Below, piece after piece: positions 31,717 to 40,184 of a stretch of 54,477 bases of DNA. A model generated the notes under the pieces. It saw nothing but the letters and a program-made list of their open reading frames with translations. It was not told where the DNA came from and did not search any database. The translations under genes and the position numbers were made by a program. Source of the stretch: Prevotella sp. (lineage in GTDB: Bacteria > Bacteroidota > Bacteroidia > Bacteroidales > Bacteroidaceae); NCBI GenBank assembly GCA_017413085.1, contig JAFPVC010000035.1, positions 1-54,477 of the forward strand. The letters are read 5' to 3'. Position 1 is the first letter of the stretch, and each line of letters begins with the position of its first letter.

Positions 31717-31747
31717 TTGCACGTTTAAAATATTATCATTAAATTTG
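31717..31747 (+). promoter_or_regulatory. Promoter of the TPR/caspase/TIR/RyR operon
   Basis: TTG (31717-31719) and TAAATTTG (31740-31747) lie 20 bp apart. It would give a leader of about 325 nt before the first gene at 32081, unusually long for this window. A second promoter closer to the gene was not recognised. Confidence 0.65.
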
Positions 31748-32080
31748 CAACGACATACTTGAAAAAGAGCGTTCCGCACGCTTCATTCTCATACAACGAA
31801 AATCGCCAATTTTCAAACTAATAGAGAAGGATGAAGAAAAAGGATTCGCCCTATCTTGTATATGCACGTATGCGTACGGCAAGATTGTCTCCACATAAGA
31901 CAGACACCCACGCCGTATAGCTCGAGCATATACGGCGTGGGTGAAGCAGTTTATATTTATTTCTCTATATGGTGTTTGGCGATGCCAGTTGTAAGGTGGA
32001 TAGAGACGTTCATCCCGCTTTTTCATACCTATAAACAAAACTACTCAAATAACGACTGACACCTAAATGCCTGTAATACC
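31748..32080 (+). other. Long leader region of the TPR/caspase/TIR/RyR operon
   Basis: The 333 bases between promoter and first gene hold no convincing coding region; an antisense frame of 99 codons over the same stretch has no recognisable features. The main structure is the 15-bp-stem hairpin at 31905-31943. The stretch could be a regulated leader or a small RNA of about 190 nt ending at the hairpin. Confidence 0.4.
31905..31943 (+). terminator. Strong hairpin in the operon leader
   Basis: CACCCACGCCGTATA (31905-31919) pairs perfectly with TATACGGCGTGGGTG (31929-31943); the 9-nt loop contains the palindrome GCTCGAGC, so the stem nearly closes. It is GC-rich against an AT-rich background and is followed only by a mixed stretch (AAGCAGTTTATATTTATTT), so termination would be partial. 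An attenuator or a stable 3' end of a small RNA are the main options. Confidence 0.5.
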
Positions 32081-34216
32081 ATGAAGAAGAAACTCTGCAT
32101 ACTTACGTTGATGTCGGCCATGGCTGTCACCATTGCTGCTCAGACATGCCAGAAAGGTATGGTCAGAACAGCAGGAAGCAGTGCGCCCAGCGGCAAAGCA
32201 GTGAAAGGCAAGCGACTTGGAGCCGTCATAATAGAAGTGGATGGAGGCAAAGAGGTGATGAGCGACGAAACAGGACAATTCACACTTGTGATACCCCGCA
32301 AGACATATTTCCTTAAAAATGTAATAAAGCAGGGATACAGGCTACTTGATGACGAAGTACTGACGCGGCAGTATTTCTACAGTGAAAACGTGCATGAAAT
32401 AGTAATGGTAAACATAGCCCAGTCTGCAGAAGCCAGATTGTCACAAATGCAAAGGAGCACAGCCACAATGCAAAAGCAACTGAAACTGCAGCAAGACGAA
32501 ATAACACGGATGCGCAACGAGAAACAAATCAATGAAGAGGAATACAGGCGCAGACTTGCAGAACTAACGGAGAACAATGAGAAAATACAGAGCAGAGCAG
32601 ACGAACTGGCAGAGCATCTCAGCAGGATAGACTATGACCGCATTGACGAACAGGAAAGCGAGGTGCTTAGACTCATAGATGACGGAATGCTTGACAGTGC
32701 AGACTCCTTACTGCACGCCATGTGTGACATACATGCAGCCGTGAACAACCACCGTGAGACTATGGAACAGCTGAACAGGGATAAGGCCAAGCATCCAGAC
32801 CGTGTCGACCAGTACGGAAGAAAGATAAGACGACAGCAGGAAAGGGGTGAAACACTCGCCGCACTCTGTCTCGACCACTACAGTATTGCACAACTGCGTT
32901 TTGACACCCATAGTGCAGAGGACTATATTGAACTGCGAGCATCTATCGACACTTCTGAAATAAAGTGGCAGATGGATGCGGCTGCTTTCCATACCAGAGA
33001 AAAGCATATCGCCAAGGCGATGAATATATATACACGCCTAATATCATGGCTGCGACCCAGCGCAGTGGCGGAGCCATCACGCTGGGATGCTGCACTCAGC
33101 GCAGTGCTTAACAACATGGCCATACTGCACAACGACAGAGGCGAGACGGCAGAGGCAGAGCAACTGTATCGCGAGGCTCTATCAATACGCCAGAGACTGG
33201 CCATGACTGCCAACGAAGTTTACGCCCCATACGTAGCACAGACGCAAAACAATCTGGCTGTATTGTTTCAGACCACAGACAAAACCAAACAGGCAGAGAA
33301 ACTGCTTACGGCAGCACTGGCCACACGCAGGACGCTGGCAGAGAGCAACCCTGTAAAGTATGGTGCAGACAAAGCGGTAACAATGGTTAATCTGGCCGCT
33401 GTATATGCAGAGCAGAGACAACATGAGCGCAGTGCAGCACTGTACTTGGAAGCACTTGACACATACAATCAACTTATACACAACGGCTTCAGTGCGTATG
33501 AGGCAGACCGTGCAGCTGTGCTCAACAATCTGGCCGTCATCTGCCGCATACGTGGAGACTTGAAACAGAGCGAGAAATACTGGTGGGATGCCCTAACGGC
33601 CTACTGCCACCTGACGCAGCGTAACCACCAGCGACACTACTCACATCTGCAGAGCACGCTTGGCAATCTGCTTGACATATATGATGCAAACAACTGTGAG
33701 TGCCTTGAGAAACGACTTACCGTATACAGACTGCTCGCAGGAAACCTGCCTGCCGACTATGCCCCTACTGCCGCACAACTGATGAACACGCTGGCAGACT
33801 GCTATGACCGTGAGCTGAATACTGAAAAAAGCAAAGAACTATATACCGAGGCTCTGACAACGTATGAGAAACTGGCAAAGAACAATGCGCCCAAATACAC
33901 GCCATACGTGGCGCGCCAGTTGGGCAACCTATCATTCCACCACCTGCTGACGGGAAAGTTTGACATAGCCGAGGAATATGCACGGCGCGGATTACAGACA
34001 GACCCTGCAAAGACTTTCATACAGGCAAACCTCGCAGCAGCATTGTTGCTCCGTGGCAAATATACCGAAGCTGAGAGCATCTATTCTGCATACAAAGACG
34101 AACTGCGCTCATCATTCTTAGAAGACCTACAGACATTTGCAGAGCGCGGAATCATACCTGACGAGAGAAAGACAGACGTAGAAAAAATAAAGAACCTACT
34201 AAGAGATAATTATTAA
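32081..34216 (+). CDS. Exported TPR protein with N-terminal Ig-like domain
   Basis: 711 residues, with a signal peptide (MKKKLCILTLMSAMAVTIAA, cut before QTCQ). Residues about 45-100 resemble a carboxypeptidase-regulatory-like Ig fold (GAVIIEVDGGKEVMSDETGQ, FTLVIPRKT). A long coiled coil follows (about 110-260). The C-terminal 400 residues are tetratricopeptide repeats of the NB-ARC/kinesin-light-chain style: LNNMAILHNDRGETAEAEQL, NLAVLFQTTDKTKQAEKLLT, NLAAVYAEQRQHERSAALYL, NLAVICRIRGDLKQSEKYW. It is the first of five genes with gaps of 15-45 bp, so it is probably the scaffold or sensor of an envelope complex. No enzymatic motif was seen. Confidence 0.85.
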   Translation: MKKKLCILTLMSAMAVTIAAQTCQKGMVRTAGSSAPSGKAVKGKRLGAVIIEVDGGKEVMSDETGQFTLVIPRKTYFLKNVIKQGYRLLDDEVLTRQYFYSENVHEIVMVNIAQSAEARLSQMQRSTATMQKQLKLQQDEITRMRNEKQINEEEYRRRLAELTENNEKIQSRADELAEHLSRIDYDRIDEQESEVLRLIDDGMLDSADSLLHAMCDIHAAVNNHRETMEQLNRDKAKHPDRVDQYGRKIRRQQERGETLAALCLDHYSIAQLRFDTHSAEDYIELRASIDTSEIKWQMDAAAFHTREKHIAKAMNIYTRLISWLRPSAVAEPSRWDAALSAVLNNMAILHNDRGETAEAEQLYREALSIRQRLAMTANEVYAPYVAQTQNNLAVLFQTTDKTKQAEKLLTAALATRRTLAESNPVKYGADKAVTMVNLAAVYAEQRQHERSAALYLEALDTYNQLIHNGFSAYEADRAAVLNNLAVICRIRGDLKQSEKYWWDALTAYCHLTQRNHQRHYSHLQSTLGNLLDIYDANNCECLEKRLTVYRLLAGNLPADYAPTAAQLMNTLADCYDRELNTEKSKELYTEALTTYEKLAKNNAPKYTPYVARQLGNLSFHHLLTGKFDIAEEYARRGLQTDPAKTFIQANLAAALLLRGKYTEAESIYSAYKDELRSSFLEDLQTFAERGIIPDERKTDVEKIKNLLRDNY

Positions 34217-34242
34217 CTATTTACCCTAAAAACATCAAAGCT

Positions 34243-35070
34243 ATGAAGAAAACATTTTTAACCCTATTCACGGCAATAGCCGCCACGATGGCAGGCTTTG
34301 CACAGGAAACAGCAGACAGCACAAGTTTCATAACCCTGAACGACATGGTGAAGCGCGAGGCCGCGACCAAGGCACAGCAGGAGAACCAGGCTTTCCATGA
34401 AAAACTGTGGGACCGTCGCTCATACCTCAACATATCATACGTATCGGCCACGCTGAAGTCATCTGAGTTGCCCACAGTAGGCGGCACATACTCTGGGGAA
34501 TACAAAAGCAACGGAGGAGTGAACCTGCAATACGGTCACACCTACGACTTCCACCAGAAGCCTATTGCCGACATGGTATTTATCGGCCTCAACTACACAG
34601 GCATCGATCTCAGCTACGCAAGTTACAGTGCAGACGTACCATCGCCATACTATCAGCCTGGTACCAACACGCCCAATAACGCACCGTGGCATAACAAGAA
34701 ACAGACCATAGACTATGGCATGGCTTTGGGACCTGCCGTCACGGTCTACCCCTTTACGACGCTTGGCAACAAGCATACCGACAAGATACGCTTCCAACTG
34801 TATTTCCAAGTAGGCTACAATGCCAGCCTTACCATACTGCAGGACGGTATAGTAGAGCAGTCGAAGAACAAGACAAAAGATATGTATGCCTTCGCACACG
34901 GTCTGTCCACGAAGTTCGGCTTCAGCCTTACATGGGATTTCGTGGGCTTGGGCTACGAGATATGGAATGCGCCGTCATACAAGAACATATATTTTGACGA
35001 CCTTGTTGACACTGGCAAGATGAAGACCAAGGTAAAGTCAAACCGCGTGTTCCTACAGTTCAGATTCTAA
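34243..35070 (+). CDS. Exported beta-barrel-like outer membrane protein
   Basis: 275 residues with a signal peptide (MKKTFLTLFTAIAATMAGFA, cut near AQE). A short coiled part (about 30-65) is followed by alternating aromatic/hydrophobic strands (YLNISYVSATLKSS, MVFIGLNYTGIDLSYASYSA, IRFQLYFQVGYNASLTI, FGFSLTWDFVGLGYEIWN) and a C-terminal aromatic residue (VFLQFRF), all typical of outer-membrane barrels. It lies 26 bp after the TPR gene and 15 bp before the caspase gene. A porin-like or anchoring role within the operon is inference; no named family was recognised. Confidence 0.72.
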   Translation: MKKTFLTLFTAIAATMAGFAQETADSTSFITLNDMVKREAATKAQQENQAFHEKLWDRRSYLNISYVSATLKSSELPTVGGTYSGEYKSNGGVNLQYGHTYDFHQKPIADMVFIGLNYTGIDLSYASYSADVPSPYYQPGTNTPNNAPWHNKKQTIDYGMALGPAVTVYPFTTLGNKHTDKIRFQLYFQVGYNASLTILQDGIVEQSKNKTKDMYAFAHGLSTKFGFSLTWDFVGLGYEIWNAPSYKNIYFDDLVDTGKMKTKVKSNRVFLQFRF

Positions 35071-35085
35071 TCAAACAAGACAAGC

Positions 35086-36600
35086 ATGACAAGATTACTA
35101 ATAACAATTCTTACCGTTGCGTTGCTTAATATAAGCGACGCAACGGCACAGGAACATGCCAAGGGCAAGTGTACGAACGACATAACGTGGACTTATGACG
35201 GTCAGACACTTACGCTTACCAACGTGTCAGACCCGTTGGAACTTGCAGACATACCCGACTATAATGCCGAGGGCGATGTAGCGCCGTGGGTAAAGCGCGG
35301 CCTGCGCATAAAGAAAATACGCATAGGGCGTCACATACGCCGCATAGGCACTTTCGCCTTTGCCAACTGCACACTGTTGGAGGACGTGGAACTAGAAATA
35401 GAACACAATTTACGTCAGATAGGCATGGGGGCATTCCTTAACTGCACCAGCCTGTTCAGTTTCCCTTTCACATCGTCACTGACCAAAATTGAGAAAATCG
35501 CTTTTGCCAACTGCCAATCGCTGCGCTCACTGAAACTGCAGGGCAGCACGAAGGTTGAAGACTATGCCTTTCTGTCATGCAGCAACATCAGCCAGCTTGA
35601 CCTTTCCAACGGCGTGCTACTTGGCAAGATGGTCTTTGCCAGAGAAACGACTGTGGGAGGTGTAAAGAAATACGACTACTTCAACGGAATGATACGCAAC
35701 CTGCCCACCACTGTCACGCCTTCAAATAGCAAGGCATACGGCATTGACGACAATACAGTGAGAATGTTTATTGCAAGAAAGGACAAGCAGACAGAAGAAG
35801 ACACGGAAACACAGCCGACATCATCAGTAGACATCAATCTTCCTGAAGCAAACATGTCCCGCCCTAATTACTATGCGCTCATAATAGGCAATGAGGACTA
35901 CCGTTTTGCGCCTAAGGTGCCATTTGCGAAAAGGGATGCACAGGTGTTTGCAGAGTATTGTGAAAAAACGCTTGGCATTCCTTCACGTAATATCCATATG
36001 TTGGAAAATGCCACCAAGCACATGCTGCTGGAACAGGAACTGAATGATTGGTTGCAGAGTATCAGCACGCGAGAACAGAAGCAGTTGATAGTCTATTATG
36101 CCGGCCACGGCGTACCTGATATGGAAGACAACAACAAGTCGTATATTTTGCCGGTAGATGTCTACTCTACAAAGCCGCGCTATGGCATTGCCCTTGATGA
36201 ATTCTATGACAAGTTAGGCGAATTAGGATTCGCTGATGTAACAGTGTTCATAGATGCTTGCTTCAGTGGTGTTGACAGGAACCATGCTTCAGTAAACAGC
36301 GGTGAACGCGGCACAGAAGTGGAAGCCGAGGATTCCCGTCCAACAAAGGGCAACATGGTGGTGTTCTGTGCAGCCCAGGGCAATGAAACTGCCCAGGGAT
36401 ACTATGAGCGCGGCCACGGACTGTTTACCTACTACCTGCTCAAGGAACTGAAACAGTCGAAAGGCAGCATCTCATACTCTAAACTGGCCGAAAGCATCAA
36501 CCGTAACGTAAGAGACACTGCACCTACCCTCGACTTGAAGAAAGGACAGACGCCAACGGTAAAAACCTCTGGCAAATCACTCAGAGACCGATATTTCTGA
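35086..36600 (+). CDS. Exported leucine-rich-repeat / caspase-like protease
   Basis: 504 residues. A signal peptide (MTRLLITILTVALLNISDAT, cut near AQE) is followed by BspA-type LRR_5 repeats (about 75-205: IRRIGTFAFANCTLLEDVEL, IEKIAFANCQSLRSLKL, VEDYAFLSCSNISQLDLS), an acidic linker and a C14 caspase/metacaspase domain (about 260-500). The catalytic pair is clear: His341 in VYYAGHGVP and Cys392 in FIDACFSG. The start of the fold, YYALIIGNEDYRFAPKVPFA, is also typical. Bacterial caspase-like proteases commonly act in the cytoplasm as defence effectors; an exported one with an LRR recognition domain is unusual. It is the third gene of the operon. Confidence 0.88.
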   Translation: MTRLLITILTVALLNISDATAQEHAKGKCTNDITWTYDGQTLTLTNVSDPLELADIPDYNAEGDVAPWVKRGLRIKKIRIGRHIRRIGTFAFANCTLLEDVELEIEHNLRQIGMGAFLNCTSLFSFPFTSSLTKIEKIAFANCQSLRSLKLQGSTKVEDYAFLSCSNISQLDLSNGVLLGKMVFARETTVGGVKKYDYFNGMIRNLPTTVTPSNSKAYGIDDNTVRMFIARKDKQTEEDTETQPTSSVDINLPEANMSRPNYYALIIGNEDYRFAPKVPFAKRDAQVFAEYCEKTLGIPSRNIHMLENATKHMLLEQELNDWLQSISTREQKQLIVYYAGHGVPDMEDNNKSYILPVDVYSTKPRYGIALDEFYDKLGELGFADVTVFIDACFSGVDRNHASVNSGERGTEVEAEDSRPTKGNMVVFCAAQGNETAQGYYERGHGLFTYYLLKELKQSKGSISYSKLAESINRNVRDTAPTLDLKKGQTPTVKTSGKSLRDRYF

Positions 36601-36636
36601 TAGAAACGACAAAAGCTACCACACACGCCACTACTC

Positions 36637-37779
36637 ATGGAACCAACACATCAGGAGTATAAATACTTCGCATTTATCAGTTACAACTCCAAGGATATGG
36701 AGTGGGGCAAGCGCATACAGCGAAAACTGGAGCACTACCGCATGCCGGCCACTCTGTGCAGCGAACGCGGATGGAAACGCAAACCCATTTCGCCAATATT
36801 CTTTGCACCCACGGATATTCAGGGAGGAGGACTGAGTGCCGAACTGCAAGCGCGTCTGCGTGCTTCTCGCAACCTCATTGTGGTCTGCTCGCCCAATTCT
36901 GCAAAATCTGAATGGGTTGGCAAGGAGATTGAATTCTTCCACAACCTGGGACGCACCGACCACCTGCATTTCTTCATCGTTGACGGTATTCCTCACAGCG
37001 GCAACAGCGACACCGAATGTTTCAACCCCGTAGTTAAAAAGTTGGGCATTCCCGAGATTCTGGGCAACAACATACATGAGAAGATATACCGCTGGCCGTG
37101 GCTGAACAAAGAGCGTGCCTATGTGCAGCTCATCTCAAAACTACTCGGCGTGGAGTTCGACTCCATCTGGCAGCGCCACAAGCGTATGTTGGCACAACAA
37201 CTGGTGGCCTGCGTCATAGGCTTTCTATGCGTGATTGCAGCACTTGTCGCAGTATGGGCGAAGAACCAACCTGTCGACGTGAGCGTAACACTGCACGAGC
37301 AACTGCCGATAAACACAGTACTTCCTCCACTGCACGACGCTGTGGTCACTCTACATCTTGACAAGGAAAAGAAAACCGACACGATACGCAGCAATGGCCA
37401 CTGTGCAGTATTTGCCAACATCCCACAAAGGTATCTTGGCAAGGAAGTCCGGGTAACGGTGAACTGTGCAGACTTCCTTACGACTGACACCACCCTGCTC
37501 ATGTCGCGCAACATGAAGGCCGGCATAAAGCGCAATCCTGCCATATATGGCAACATACTCTTCACACTGTGGGATACGCGCAGGGGGAAGCCTATTGCGA
37601 ATGCAACCGTCACGGTGGCAGGGCGCAATGTGCAGACCGACAGCCGTGGACGCGTCAGAATGCAGATACCTACGGACAGTCAGCAGACCTCATATAAGGT
37701 CAAGTTCGCCCGCCCACTTTATCATGACACTGTCAACATGCCGTGCGGAGAGAACGACGTAATAAGAACTGACGACTGA
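36637..37779 (+). CDS. TIR-domain protein with membrane anchor and Ig-like outer domain
   Basis: 380 residues. The TIR domain covers about 1-170: FAFISYNSKDMEWGKRIQRK at strand A, IFFAPTDIQGGGLSAELQA, and SPNSAKSEWVGKEIEFFHN, where Glu97 occupies the place of the catalytic glutamate of NAD-cleaving TIRs. A single membrane helix follows (about 188-207, LVACVIGFLCVIAALVAVWA). The rest (about 210-380) is beta-rich and ends with a carboxypeptidase-regulatory-like Ig domain (GKPIANATVTVAGRNVQTDS). TIR would be cytoplasmic and the Ig part periplasmic, a transmembrane-receptor topology. It lies 36 bp after the caspase gene. Confidence 0.85.
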   Translation: MEPTHQEYKYFAFISYNSKDMEWGKRIQRKLEHYRMPATLCSERGWKRKPISPIFFAPTDIQGGGLSAELQARLRASRNLIVVCSPNSAKSEWVGKEIEFFHNLGRTDHLHFFIVDGIPHSGNSDTECFNPVVKKLGIPEILGNNIHEKIYRWPWLNKERAYVQLISKLLGVEFDSIWQRHKRMLAQQLVACVIGFLCVIAALVAVWAKNQPVDVSVTLHEQLPINTVLPPLHDAVVTLHLDKEKKTDTIRSNGHCAVFANIPQRYLGKEVRVTVNCADFLTTDTTLLMSRNMKAGIKRNPAIYGNILFTLWDTRRGKPIANATVTVAGRNVQTDSRGRVRMQIPTDSQQTSYKVKFARPLYHDTVNMPCGENDVIRTDD

Positions 37780-37824
37780 GCTGATGCAAGCATACAACAA
37801 AAACAAATTCAAAACGACATCATT

Positions 37825-40143
37825 ATGAACTGGGCATCATGCATCATTATTTCTGCGCAACCCACAGCAACGCAGCTGCTTTCTGCGTCACGCCTTGCCA
37901 CTTCTCTGTGGTGGCTGCTCTCGTGCATAACCCTGCTGATTGTGCTGAGTTTTCTATACAAGCCTGTCAGCGTGGAGACAAAACGCAGGTTATGGTCGTT
38001 TGTTGACCGCTCACTGATGCCTGCGTTCGCCGTGCTGTGGACAATGGGTTTCGTGATATATGCCATAGGTTCGTGGATGCCCGAACTTAGTGATACCGGT
38101 GATTTCTGGGCAGTTGTACCGTTTGCGATTATCGATGCCACGCGCATGTTTATTTTCTCAAGCGACCTGCCTGCCGTCAACCCCATACTGAAGCAAGACG
38201 TGCTTTACATGGGACTGTTCAGCGCAGTGCATTTCGCAGCCTCGTTCTTCAGCCTTATCTTCGTGTTGCGTCACTTCGGTTTCTATCTCATTGAAAAGTT
38301 GCGTGTATGGCTGGCAGGAGTACGTTCTTTGCTACCAAGGTGGTTCTTCGGACGCAGGGGACGTAAACTTTATGTAATCTACGGCACAGACAGCCGCTCA
38401 CTTATGATGGCCGACAGCATAAGGCGCAGTGTTACGGATGCCGATATCGCCGTGGTGCAGAATGCCGGTGATGACGACGTGCACGATGCCGCCATGGGCA
38501 TATCGCGCATACTTGGCAGAGCCAGTCTGAAAAACAGTCTGACCGACAGTCTCAGGGGGATGGGCTATCTCATAATGTTCACGAAACACAACCTTACAAA
38601 CGGCATGTTCGAAAATGGTTCACGCATAATACGCGACACACTGGAGCTGACTTCGCTGGAGCGCATCATGCGGAACTCAAAGGAAGAACTGCTTCTGTTC
38701 TTCCTCGGCGAGGATGAAGAAGAGAACTTGAGCGCGGCGGTGAACATCCTCAAGGACTCTGTCTTGCTGCGCATTGCCGACAGGCAACCCGTCAGGGTGT
38801 TCTGCCGTGCGCACCGCAATTGCGTAAACCGCGTCGCAGAAGACAGAAGCCCTCACGAGAATGTGACCATAAGGCTGGTCGACGCTGCCGACATCAGCAT
38901 AGAGATGCTCAAGCAGTCTGCCGAGAGCCATCCAGTAAATTATGTCAGCGTGGAAGCTGACGGCACCGTATCGTCATTGTTTCATGCACTGATCATAGGC
39001 TGCGGCGACACTGGACAAACTGCGGTACGGTTCCTTTATGAATTTGGAGCGTTCGTTGCCACGGGCAGCACCGACGCCGACATACAAAGATCCCCGTTCC
39101 GCTGTGACGTGGTAGACAAGGACATGCACACTCTGGCACCTCTGATGATGGAAGACATGCCGGCCATGGACATGTCTGTTGAAGACGGCTCGCTGGTAGT
39201 ACTTCACGACATAGACACTGGCGACAAGTTGTTTTCTGACTGTCTGCGCAAATGGATATGCACACTTAACTACGTGGTGATTGCCACTGAGGACAATGAA
39301 CGAAACATGATGCTGGCCGTGCGCATACTGCGCCTCGCCATGAGATACCGCAGGGGAATGGATTACTTACGCATAAACGTACGCATAACACGGGATGCCG
39401 ACGGTCATCTGCATGATGCAGCCGACCACTGGAACCGGCTTGTAAAGGCAGAAATGCATGCTGTCGATGGCACAGGCCACTGCCACCAGAGAATAATAGA
39501 GAGCGACTGCCGCCCCGACGGACCGATTGTGCTGTTTGGCTACGACAGGGAAATCTACACCTACGACCACGTGGTGAAAGACAAAGTGCGCATCCGCGCA
39601 AAAAAATACAAGCAGCATTACGATGAAACGGTGAACGCACTGCTGCGCCAGTCAGGCGAAACGGAAAACAAGGTAGTGAGCTGGGACACCGAGCAAGCAT
39701 CACTGATGCAGTTGACAGACGAGTGGCGAGGCTATTCGCCTACATATTCGGCGGTAATGCGCTTGAGACGCATACAGTCGCAGAACATGCAGAACAGTTT
39801 CCACATCCTGACCAAAAGGATGCTGATGCGGCGTGCACTGGGAAACGGCGAATATGAGCGGTTACTTACTGCGCCGCCACAGCGCAAGCACGGCACAGTG
39901 GAATATGAGCACAAGTCAGAAGACAGTGCTGCGATAAAGGCACTCCACACTCTAGCTCGCACCGAGCATCTCAGATGGGTGGCATCACATGAAGCCCTTG
40001 GATATCAAGACTATGCCACAGAGAAAGACAAAGATGAGGCGCGGCTGCTGCACGGCTGCATGAAACCATGGCACGAGCTTTCCGAACTAGTGCAAAGCTA
40101 TGATTACGATGTGGTTGACACATCATTAATACTTGACATTTAG
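37825..40143 (+). CDS. Membrane protein with Rossmann (TrkA_N-like) and RyR-like domains
   Basis: 772 residues. Three or four membrane segments lie in the first 160 residues (about 28-46, 64-84, 95-112 and 126-156). Two nucleotide-binding-like cores follow: KLYVIYGTDSRSLMMADSI (near 181) and ALIIGCGDTGQTAVRFLYEF (near 386), the latter a GxGxxG Rossmann motif as in TrkA/KTN potassium-channel regulators. The C-terminus (about 700-772) reads ALHTLARTEHLRWVASHEAL and LHGCMKPWHELSELVQSYDY, the pattern of the RyR domain found in bacterial conflict systems. It could be a ligand-gated channel or effector that responds to a nucleotide signal, for example from the upstream TIR protein (inference). It is the last gene of the operon. 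Confidence 0.78.
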   Translation: MNWASCIIISAQPTATQLLSASRLATSLWWLLSCITLLIVLSFLYKPVSVETKRRLWSFVDRSLMPAFAVLWTMGFVIYAIGSWMPELSDTGDFWAVVPFAIIDATRMFIFSSDLPAVNPILKQDVLYMGLFSAVHFAASFFSLIFVLRHFGFYLIEKLRVWLAGVRSLLPRWFFGRRGRKLYVIYGTDSRSLMMADSIRRSVTDADIAVVQNAGDDDVHDAAMGISRILGRASLKNSLTDSLRGMGYLIMFTKHNLTNGMFENGSRIIRDTLELTSLERIMRNSKEELLLFFLGEDEEENLSAAVNILKDSVLLRIADRQPVRVFCRAHRNCVNRVAEDRSPHENVTIRLVDAADISIEMLKQSAESHPVNYVSVEADGTVSSLFHALIIGCGDTGQTAVRFLYEFGAFVATGSTDADIQRSPFRCDVVDKDMHTLAPLMMEDMPAMDMSVEDGSLVVLHDIDTGDKLFSDCLRKWICTLNYVVIATEDNERNMMLAVRILRLAMRYRRGMDYLRINVRITRDADGHLHDAADHWNRLVKAEMHAVDGTGHCHQRIIESDCRPDGPIVLFGYDREIYTYDHVVKDKVRIRAKKYKQHYDETVNALLRQSGETENKVVSWDTEQASLMQLTDEWRGYSPTYSAVMRLRRIQSQNMQNSFHILTKRMLMRRALGNGEYERLLTAPPQRKHGTVEYEHKSEDSAAIKALHTLARTEHLRWVASHEALGYQDYATEKDKDEARLLHGCMKPWHELSELVQSYDYDVVDTSLILDI

Positions 40144-40156
40144 AACTTTTGAAAAA

Positions 40157-40184
40157 TGTCAGAAAAACTCACCGTTTTCTGACA
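40157..40184 (+). terminator. Terminator of the TPR/caspase/TIR/RyR operon
   Basis: TGTCAGAAAA (40157-40166) and TTTTCTGACA (40175-40184) are perfect 10-bp arms with an 8-nt loop, starting 13 bp after the stop codon of the last gene. There is no long U run after it. Confidence 0.6.

Follow-up and report, generated by a model that had tools for sequence, protein, structure and literature searches.

We report a five-gene operon of Prevotella sp. whose products may constitute an envelope-anchored nucleotide signalling system, in which a TIR protein would supply the messenger, the RyR domain of the last gene product would receive it, and an outer-membrane barrel together with an LRR-caspase would form an add-on. 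We favour this reading tentatively and rate its chances as somewhat short of even. The operon lies in a window of 54,477 nucleotides, which is the whole stretch of DNA analysed and corresponds to contig C26 of a genome assembly of 2.83 Mb in 62 contigs that is about 79% complete.

The initial annotation had placed five same-strand genes at 32081-40143, and five + strand open reading frames were found there, separated by gaps of 26, 15, 36 and 45 bp (Table 1). It had also noted a hairpin 13 bp 3' of the gene 5 stop codon, which is present at that distance and lacks a T-run. The single promoter that it proposed, on the other hand, was not borne out: the + strand 5' of gene 1 is without TTTG-N17-23-TAnnTTTG and carries a lone TAAATTTG at 31740-31747. 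The leader between this box and gene 1 contains a perfect 15-bp inverted repeat (31905-31943), which is possibly an attenuator. Products of genes 1-3 had been described as bearing signal peptides and those of genes 4 and 5 as membrane proteins. Inspection by eye found signal-peptide-like N-termini in the first three, and hydropathy gave one membrane segment in gene 4 and three separate hydrophobic stretches towards the N-terminal end of gene 5, in agreement with both descriptions. For genes 2 and 5, Pfam returned no match that passed its cut-off, and searches of NCBIfam and PHROGs were negative at the thresholds applied. Another Prevotellaceae genome (L057 = L069) contains counterparts of all five genes, 52-72% identical and in unchanged order, with different neighbours and different spacing; because it is repeated there beside other neighbours, the five-gene order stands above chance.

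Table 1. Features of the operon and its 3' flank, in positions of the window.
Feature	Position	Strand	Basis
Gene 1, TPR protein, 711 aa	32081..34216	+	ORF, Pfam
Gene 2, 8-stranded outer-membrane-type barrel, 275 aa	34243..35070	+	ORF, model, fold matches
Gene 3, LRR_5 + caspase-fold (C14) protease, 504 aa	35086..36600	+	ORF, Pfam, alignment
BspA-type LRR_5 region of gene 3, residues 74-186	35305..35643	+	Pfam
Peptidase_C14 domain of gene 3, residues 263-494	35872..36567	+	Pfam
Gene 4, TIR domain + membrane segment, 380 aa	36637..37779	+	ORF, Pfam, hydropathy; topology inferred
Catalytic-type Glu97 codon of the gene 4 TIR	36925..36927	+	invariant 6/6
Gene 5, membrane + tandem Rossmann-like + RyR protein, 772 aa	37825..40143	+	ORF, profile, model
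RyR domain of gene 5, residues 701-769	39925..40131	+	profile match, alignment
Hairpin TGTCAGAAAA/TTTTCTGACA 3' of operon, no T-run	40157..40184	+	arms 40157-40166, 40175-40184

Gene 5 is sporadic. At E 0.001, with some matches partial, it was found in 5/60 mixed relatives, 15/393 genomes of the order and 18/299 genomes of the genus. A contig scan yielded 142 gene-5 relatives, the best 80 of which were used; nearly all of these loci are labelled Bacteroidales or its families (the others being three Bacillota and one Flavobacteriales, all MAGs). One locus without a gene-5 model (L109) was dropped, leaving 79 loci counted from the best 80 of 142, with a crude gene finder and some short contigs. 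Several contigs are entered twice (L057 = L069, L008 = L095, L061 = L120 and others), and duplicates under G handles were kept out of the 79.

The proposal that the five genes form a single system held in part. The full set occurs in 9/80 loci (best 80 of 142, window included), and its pieces also occur apart. The full sets are those of the window, L069, L072, L073, L074, L077, L078, L084 and L147, with a gene-5 identity of 27-52%. Gene order is alike in the window and L069; gene 5 comes first in L072, L074, L077, L078 and L084, the arrangement is divergent in L073, and TIR leads in L147. Linkage therefore outlives arrangement. An extra RyR gene of 97-100 aa accompanies seven of the nine full sets. 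Partial sets were seen as well: L070 has gene 5, TPR, barrel and caspase without TIR, and TPR and TIR adjoin gene 5 without barrel or caspase in L071, L076, L088, L094, L095 and L127, among others.

The association of TIR with gene 5 is the firmest bond in the set. Within 7.5 kb of gene 5, in the 79 loci from the best 80 of 142, a TIR gene is found in 49, another RyR gene in 49 and either of the two in 59, a gene-1-family TPR gene in 26, the barrel in nine and the caspase in nine; TIR is absent over this distance in 30/79, some of them on short contigs. The number of TIR genes per 10 kb is 1.07, 0.63, 0.27 and 0.15 at 0-2.5, 2.5-5, 5-7.5 and 7.5-10 kb from gene 5, a sevenfold drop between the nearest and the farthest interval. 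Within the genus, gene-4 matches occur in 11/18 genomes with gene 5 versus 18/281 without it (Fisher p 2e-8), and the barrel in 4/18 versus 19/281 (p 0.04), in tests that ignore relatedness and assume identical sets of 299 genomes in both samples. On a gene-5 tree built by a quick method, the full set takes five changes, at least four of them on starred branches, and TIR absence takes 21, at least 16 of them on starred branches, with 44/500 shuffles as low. The TIR bond is therefore not the heritage of one clade, yet it is labile. Co-occurrence, TIR density and tree mapping together rule out that five unrelated genes merely lie side by side. Since the same parts stay together in some relatives, the operon appears to be a genuine system for signalling or defence.

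The signalling core would begin with genes 1 and 4. The product of gene 1 has a signal peptide (by inspection), an N domain, a stretch that appears coiled-coil-like by eye, and TPR matches from about residue 341 (TPR_10, 3.7e-24). In gene 4, the first ~180 residues match TIR_2 (1.1e-9) and ThsB_TIR (1.9e-6, 28.6 bits against a cut-off of 21.2). The TIR part is followed by a single membrane segment at residues 189-207 (hydropathy), and the last ~170 residues are predicted, on the inferred topology, to lie in the periplasm; this C-terminal half gave a weak CarboxypepD_reg match in Pfam, below cut-off. Glu97 of the TIR domain sits where it had been assigned, and a catalytic-type glutamate is invariant there in 6/6 sequences. 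Seven plasmid records matched gene 4 over about half its length, that is, the TIR part, at 24-33% identity. The window genome encodes a second TIR gene far from the operon (G000:C4:157816-158100), which is closer to the TIR_2 model than gene 4 is (3.0e-20 against 1.4e-9).

The candidate receptor is the C-terminal RyR domain of gene 5. The earlier assignment of this domain is supported by a profile built from 18 relatives, which matches R12 structures near its end, at positions 660-744 of 749 (6uhi, an RyR1 chimera, 2e-12; 3nrt, from B. thetaiotaomicron, 6.1e-6); when the gene 5 sequence was scanned singly against Pfam, no family was matched at E up to 1. RyR/RyDEP domains were recently reported to bind 2'/3'cADPR, and in the phage protein RyDEP the residues H75, W78, H100 and D117 hold 3'cADPR, H75 and D117 being the catalytic pair (preprint PMC13232231, in the excerpts available). 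Among 54 aligned relatives of gene 5, E714, H715, W718 and D760 are present in 54/54 and H743 in 53/54, and H715, W718, H743 and D760 pair by eye with the four RyDEP residues as given in those excerpts. In alignments A1 and A2, the relatives' proteins end one residue short.

Because the His/Asp pair of RyDEP is kept as H715 and D760, in 54/54 relatives, the RyR domain of gene 5 could be a hydrolase. It might in that case be an off-switch, hydrolysing or soaking up the TIR product, with the TIR protein (through NAD+ loss) or the caspase as the effector; the separate small RyR gene in 7/9 full sets also speaks for such a role. We regard this explanation as unlikely. Catalytic residues alone do not imply hydrolysis, since most tested RyDEP homologues bind (6/8 bound signals) whereas cleavage is reported for the founding protein alone, as far as the excerpts of PMC13232231 go. 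Furthermore, a hydrolase needs no fusion to a large membrane-Rossmann protein.

That protein was modelled with AF2 at a mean pLDDT of 88.7 and a pTM of 0.83. The modelled membrane part (residues 21-167) consists of helices at 21-45 and 50-83, a short one at 94-110 and a long one at 126-167; two Rossmann-like domains (~181-384 and 386-571), a helical part and the RyR domain follow. In the second Rossmann domain, the GxGxxG glycines G392 and G397 are found in 54/54 relatives and G394 in 40/54. In Foldseek a single PDB entry reached an E of 0.001 or less, and this top match is hSlo1, the human BK channel (E 4.7e-4, prob 1.00, 738 columns, TM-score 0.30); generic Rossmann tandems could explain the match. 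The suggestion that gene 5 is a channel drew some support here, as the membrane part is weakly channel-like in the AF2 model, and its short helix, flanked by two long ones, might act as a pore helix, with F109 (54/54) at its end and D114 (48/54) after it. A TVGYG-like K+ filter is absent from the 54-relative alignment. Comparison of gene 5 with TrkA and Kch profiles by hhalign gave probabilities of 1% or less throughout, with weak profiles of four rows each, one of the Kch rows being in the wrong frame and one a duplicate. Because this comparison gave nothing, the channel is a structural hint only.

Relatives of the core are found beside other regulatory and proteolytic genes. At L197:442-4465 and L068:10879-12421, a gene that looks sigma-factor-like by eye is followed by one for a protein with a C39-like peptidase and a C-terminal RyR domain (RyR 1.1e-28 in L197 and 2.3e-28 in L068), adjoining TPR/TIR in L197 or gene 5 in L068; neither of the two sigma-factor-like proteins tried matched a sigma family in Pfam. 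The pair is possibly a messenger-controlled sigma switch. A PrsW intramembrane protease lies by gene 5 or TIR, with a cluster in seven loci (representative 2.4e-38; Pfam on two), and an M48 protease by gene 5 or TPR-TIR, likewise with a cluster in seven loci (representative 3.2e-16). PrsW genes were located at L128:9141-9860 and L198:437-1153. A DUF4062 protein adjoins gene 5 in L061/L120 (Pfam on L061), and a large protein of DUF4062 type is seen by eye in L065; DUF4062 is a TIR-like NADase family, Swarozyc, according to the available part of PMC13174449. These neighbourhoods suggest several RyR-bearing outputs fed by NADases.

Such neighbours, and the exported look of three of the five products, also fit a role in envelope stress or contact signalling to gene expression rather than immunity, in which the messenger would act on sigma-controlling RyR proteins and intramembrane proteases. 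We think this improbable for the operon as it stands, because the sigma-like, C39-like/RyR, PrsW and M48 genes are all absent from it in the window, and so sporadic a gene (18/299 congeneric genomes) would be odd for housekeeping regulation. A TIR-to-RyR system at the envelope, with immunity among its conceivable purposes, is still the reading that we prefer. An anti-phage role of the operon, predicted from family resemblance and sporadic presence, is possible.

The surroundings of gene 5 add little to this prediction. A defence-island scan drew on 206 clusters of proteins of 130-700 aa encoded less than 4 kb away from gene 5, tracked families excluded, from which 79 representatives were picked by hand. 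These matched 17 PADLOC families at 1e-5, each from one member and with several names repeated, and their Pfam families were mostly housekeeping among the matches listed (25/101 families). Because the non-family neighbours are mostly housekeeping, the defence-island argument is weak, and we count it as neutral or against. A check for a phage or plasmid origin gave no support for one: no relatives of gene 5 were found in viral contigs (29 stretches fitted the pattern, none encoding a relative) or in plasmids and phages at the limits used.

Genes 2 and 3 are a different matter. The model of gene 2 is an 8-stranded barrel (pLDDT 76.6) whose best fold matches include OmpX, OprG and OmpW, and the protein ends in QFRF, an aromatic end expected of an outer-membrane barrel with eight strands. 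Gene 3 has a signal peptide by inspection and matches LRR_5 (6.5e-21) and Peptidase_C14 (1.8e-19) in Pfam. Its His341 and Cys392 were located as the initial annotation had them; His341 (YYAGHG), Asp390 and Cys392 (DACFSG) are invariant in 10/10 sequences, so that the His-Cys dyad of the C14 caspase fold is kept.

Barrel and caspase also occur separately from the rest, as do TPR with TIR, and gene 5, and an indivisible five-gene system is thereby ruled out. The set consists of three units: barrel and LRR-caspase as a portable pair, TPR and TIR as a second, and gene 5 as a third. Among 299 genomes of the genus, gene 2 is present in 23, a full-length gene-3 relative in 17 (all with gene 2) and gene 4 in 29; six weak gene-2 matches of the 23 genomes are without a full-length gene-3 relative. 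In the 17 genomes with both barrel and caspase, the pair adjoins gene 5 in the window and in G566 only. G541 has TPR-barrel-caspase with TIR 30 kb off and gene 5 on a separate contig, and in G659 the pair and gene 5 are on different contigs. Fourteen loci of 4-19 kb found by tblastn (L181-L190, L201-L204) contain barrel and LRR-caspase without gene 1, 4 or 5. Their neighbours are a ~300 aa protein in 14/14, a ~175 aa protein in 13/14 and a CHASE2 relative in 5/14; by Pfam, on one protein each, the first matches DUF4384 at 7.5e-6, just below cut-off, and the last CHASE2 at 1.6e-21. The lone pair is a second, TIR-free exported caspase unit, export being judged by inspection. In L179 and L204, long spurious ORFs masked barrel and caspase, which were recovered by tblastn. 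For the second unit, TPR and TIR stand together in L191, L194, L195, L196, L197 and L200, six loci whose genomes gave no match to gene 5, and TIR stands alone in two further ones (L192, L193).

From the 14 lone pairs with neighbours of their own, and from the 2/17 genomes of the genus in which the pair adjoins gene 5, it might be argued that barrel and LRR-caspase are an unrelated envelope unit merely travelling with the TIR-RyR genes, which we hold to be very unlikely, because the ten caspases of TPR-barrel-caspase sets (including TIR-less L070) are split from 13 stand-alone ones on one branch of the gene-3 tree (100/99), a grouping for which 0/500 shuffles were as low, and all ten, as well as that of G541, adjoin a gene-1-family TPR gene. 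The branch and the constant TPR neighbour therefore point to a lasting bond and not to repeated hitch-hiking.

Among known systems, the operon is perhaps best seen as a variant of TIR nucleotide signalling that resembles Thoeris in logic. Thoeris combines a ThsB TIR with a nucleotide-activated effector, and in both cases the TIR is expected to make an ADPR-type signal for the protein of an adjoining gene; in the operon, however, the TIR is transmembrane, the receptor would be an RyR domain, and partners are exported. At E up to 1, ThsA models found no match in any product of the operon, and ThsB models match among the five weakly, over ~38 residues. Because no ThsA-type effector is found among the five proteins, we do not file the operon as Thoeris. 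Type IV Thoeris, reportedly from work by Rousset in 2025, is said to pair a TIR with a caspase-like protease that is cytoplasmic. Both systems thus contain a TIR and a caspase-fold protease, whereas the protease of the operon has LRRs, an export signal (by inspection) and an outer-membrane barrel as its partner.

A survey of nucleotide-centred conflict systems, reportedly by Burroughs in 2015, may already refer to bacterial RyR proteins of this kind. The initial annotation knew of no described system with this set of genes, and the open-licence literature that we searched likewise yields no TIR-RyR-caspase operon. By word search, RyR is not mentioned in PMC7159879 or PMC9503650, ryanodine appears in PMC8195603 in the references only, and the available part of PMC7016017 has nothing on bacterial RyR. 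RyDEP, as far as PMC13232231 was available, shares with gene 5 the RyR/R12 fold, the four ligand residues and the link to TIR-derived cADPR; it is a phage anti-defence protein, whereas gene 5 is bacterial, membrane-bound and adjoins a TIR gene. BK/Slo1 and bacterial RCK channels have, like gene 5, membrane helices and then two Rossmann domains, and they provide its best structural match, but gene 5 differs in having no sequence kinship that we could find, no K+ filter and an additional RyR domain. The Swarozyc DUF4062 NADases, from the portion of PMC13174449 at hand, are a family that adjoins gene 5 in L061/L120 but is absent from the window.

Taken in sequence, the envelope-anchored pathway would run as follows. 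Sensing of an event at the envelope would fall to the exported TPR protein and to the periplasmic half of gene 4, upon which the cytoplasmic TIR domain, judging from its family and Glu97, would turn NAD+ into an ADP-ribose-type messenger. This messenger would bind the C-terminal RyR domain of gene 5, as the four conserved ligand residues lead us to expect, and binding may alter the membrane part of gene 5, most likely, going by the model, by opening a pore. Barrel and LRR-caspase, from their linkage, would be an outer-membrane and periplasmic add-on that reports to the pathway or executes for it. Most other full sets add a stand-alone RyR protein of 97-100 aa, which might limit the response by binding the messenger or by destroying it. 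A more specific version, which we consider rather doubtful though worth stating, is that a cADPR isomer from the envelope-triggered TIR opens an RyR-gated, BK-like channel formed by gene 5, with the barrel and the exported LRR-caspase sensing or executing.

If the broader reading is true, the operon would provide a new receptor class for TIR-made nucleotides, an RyR domain on a membrane Rossmann protein, and would place TIR signalling at the cell envelope and not in the cytoplasm. It would also make the question of whether ADP-ribose signals are read by RyR domains testable in a compact model. The barrel and LRR-caspase pair, present in 17/299 genomes of the genus and exported as judged by inspection, is itself without a described role in the literature searched. 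Should gene 5 turn out to be an RyR-gated channel, bacteria would have in this operon a counterpart to the cADPR-RyR axis of animals.
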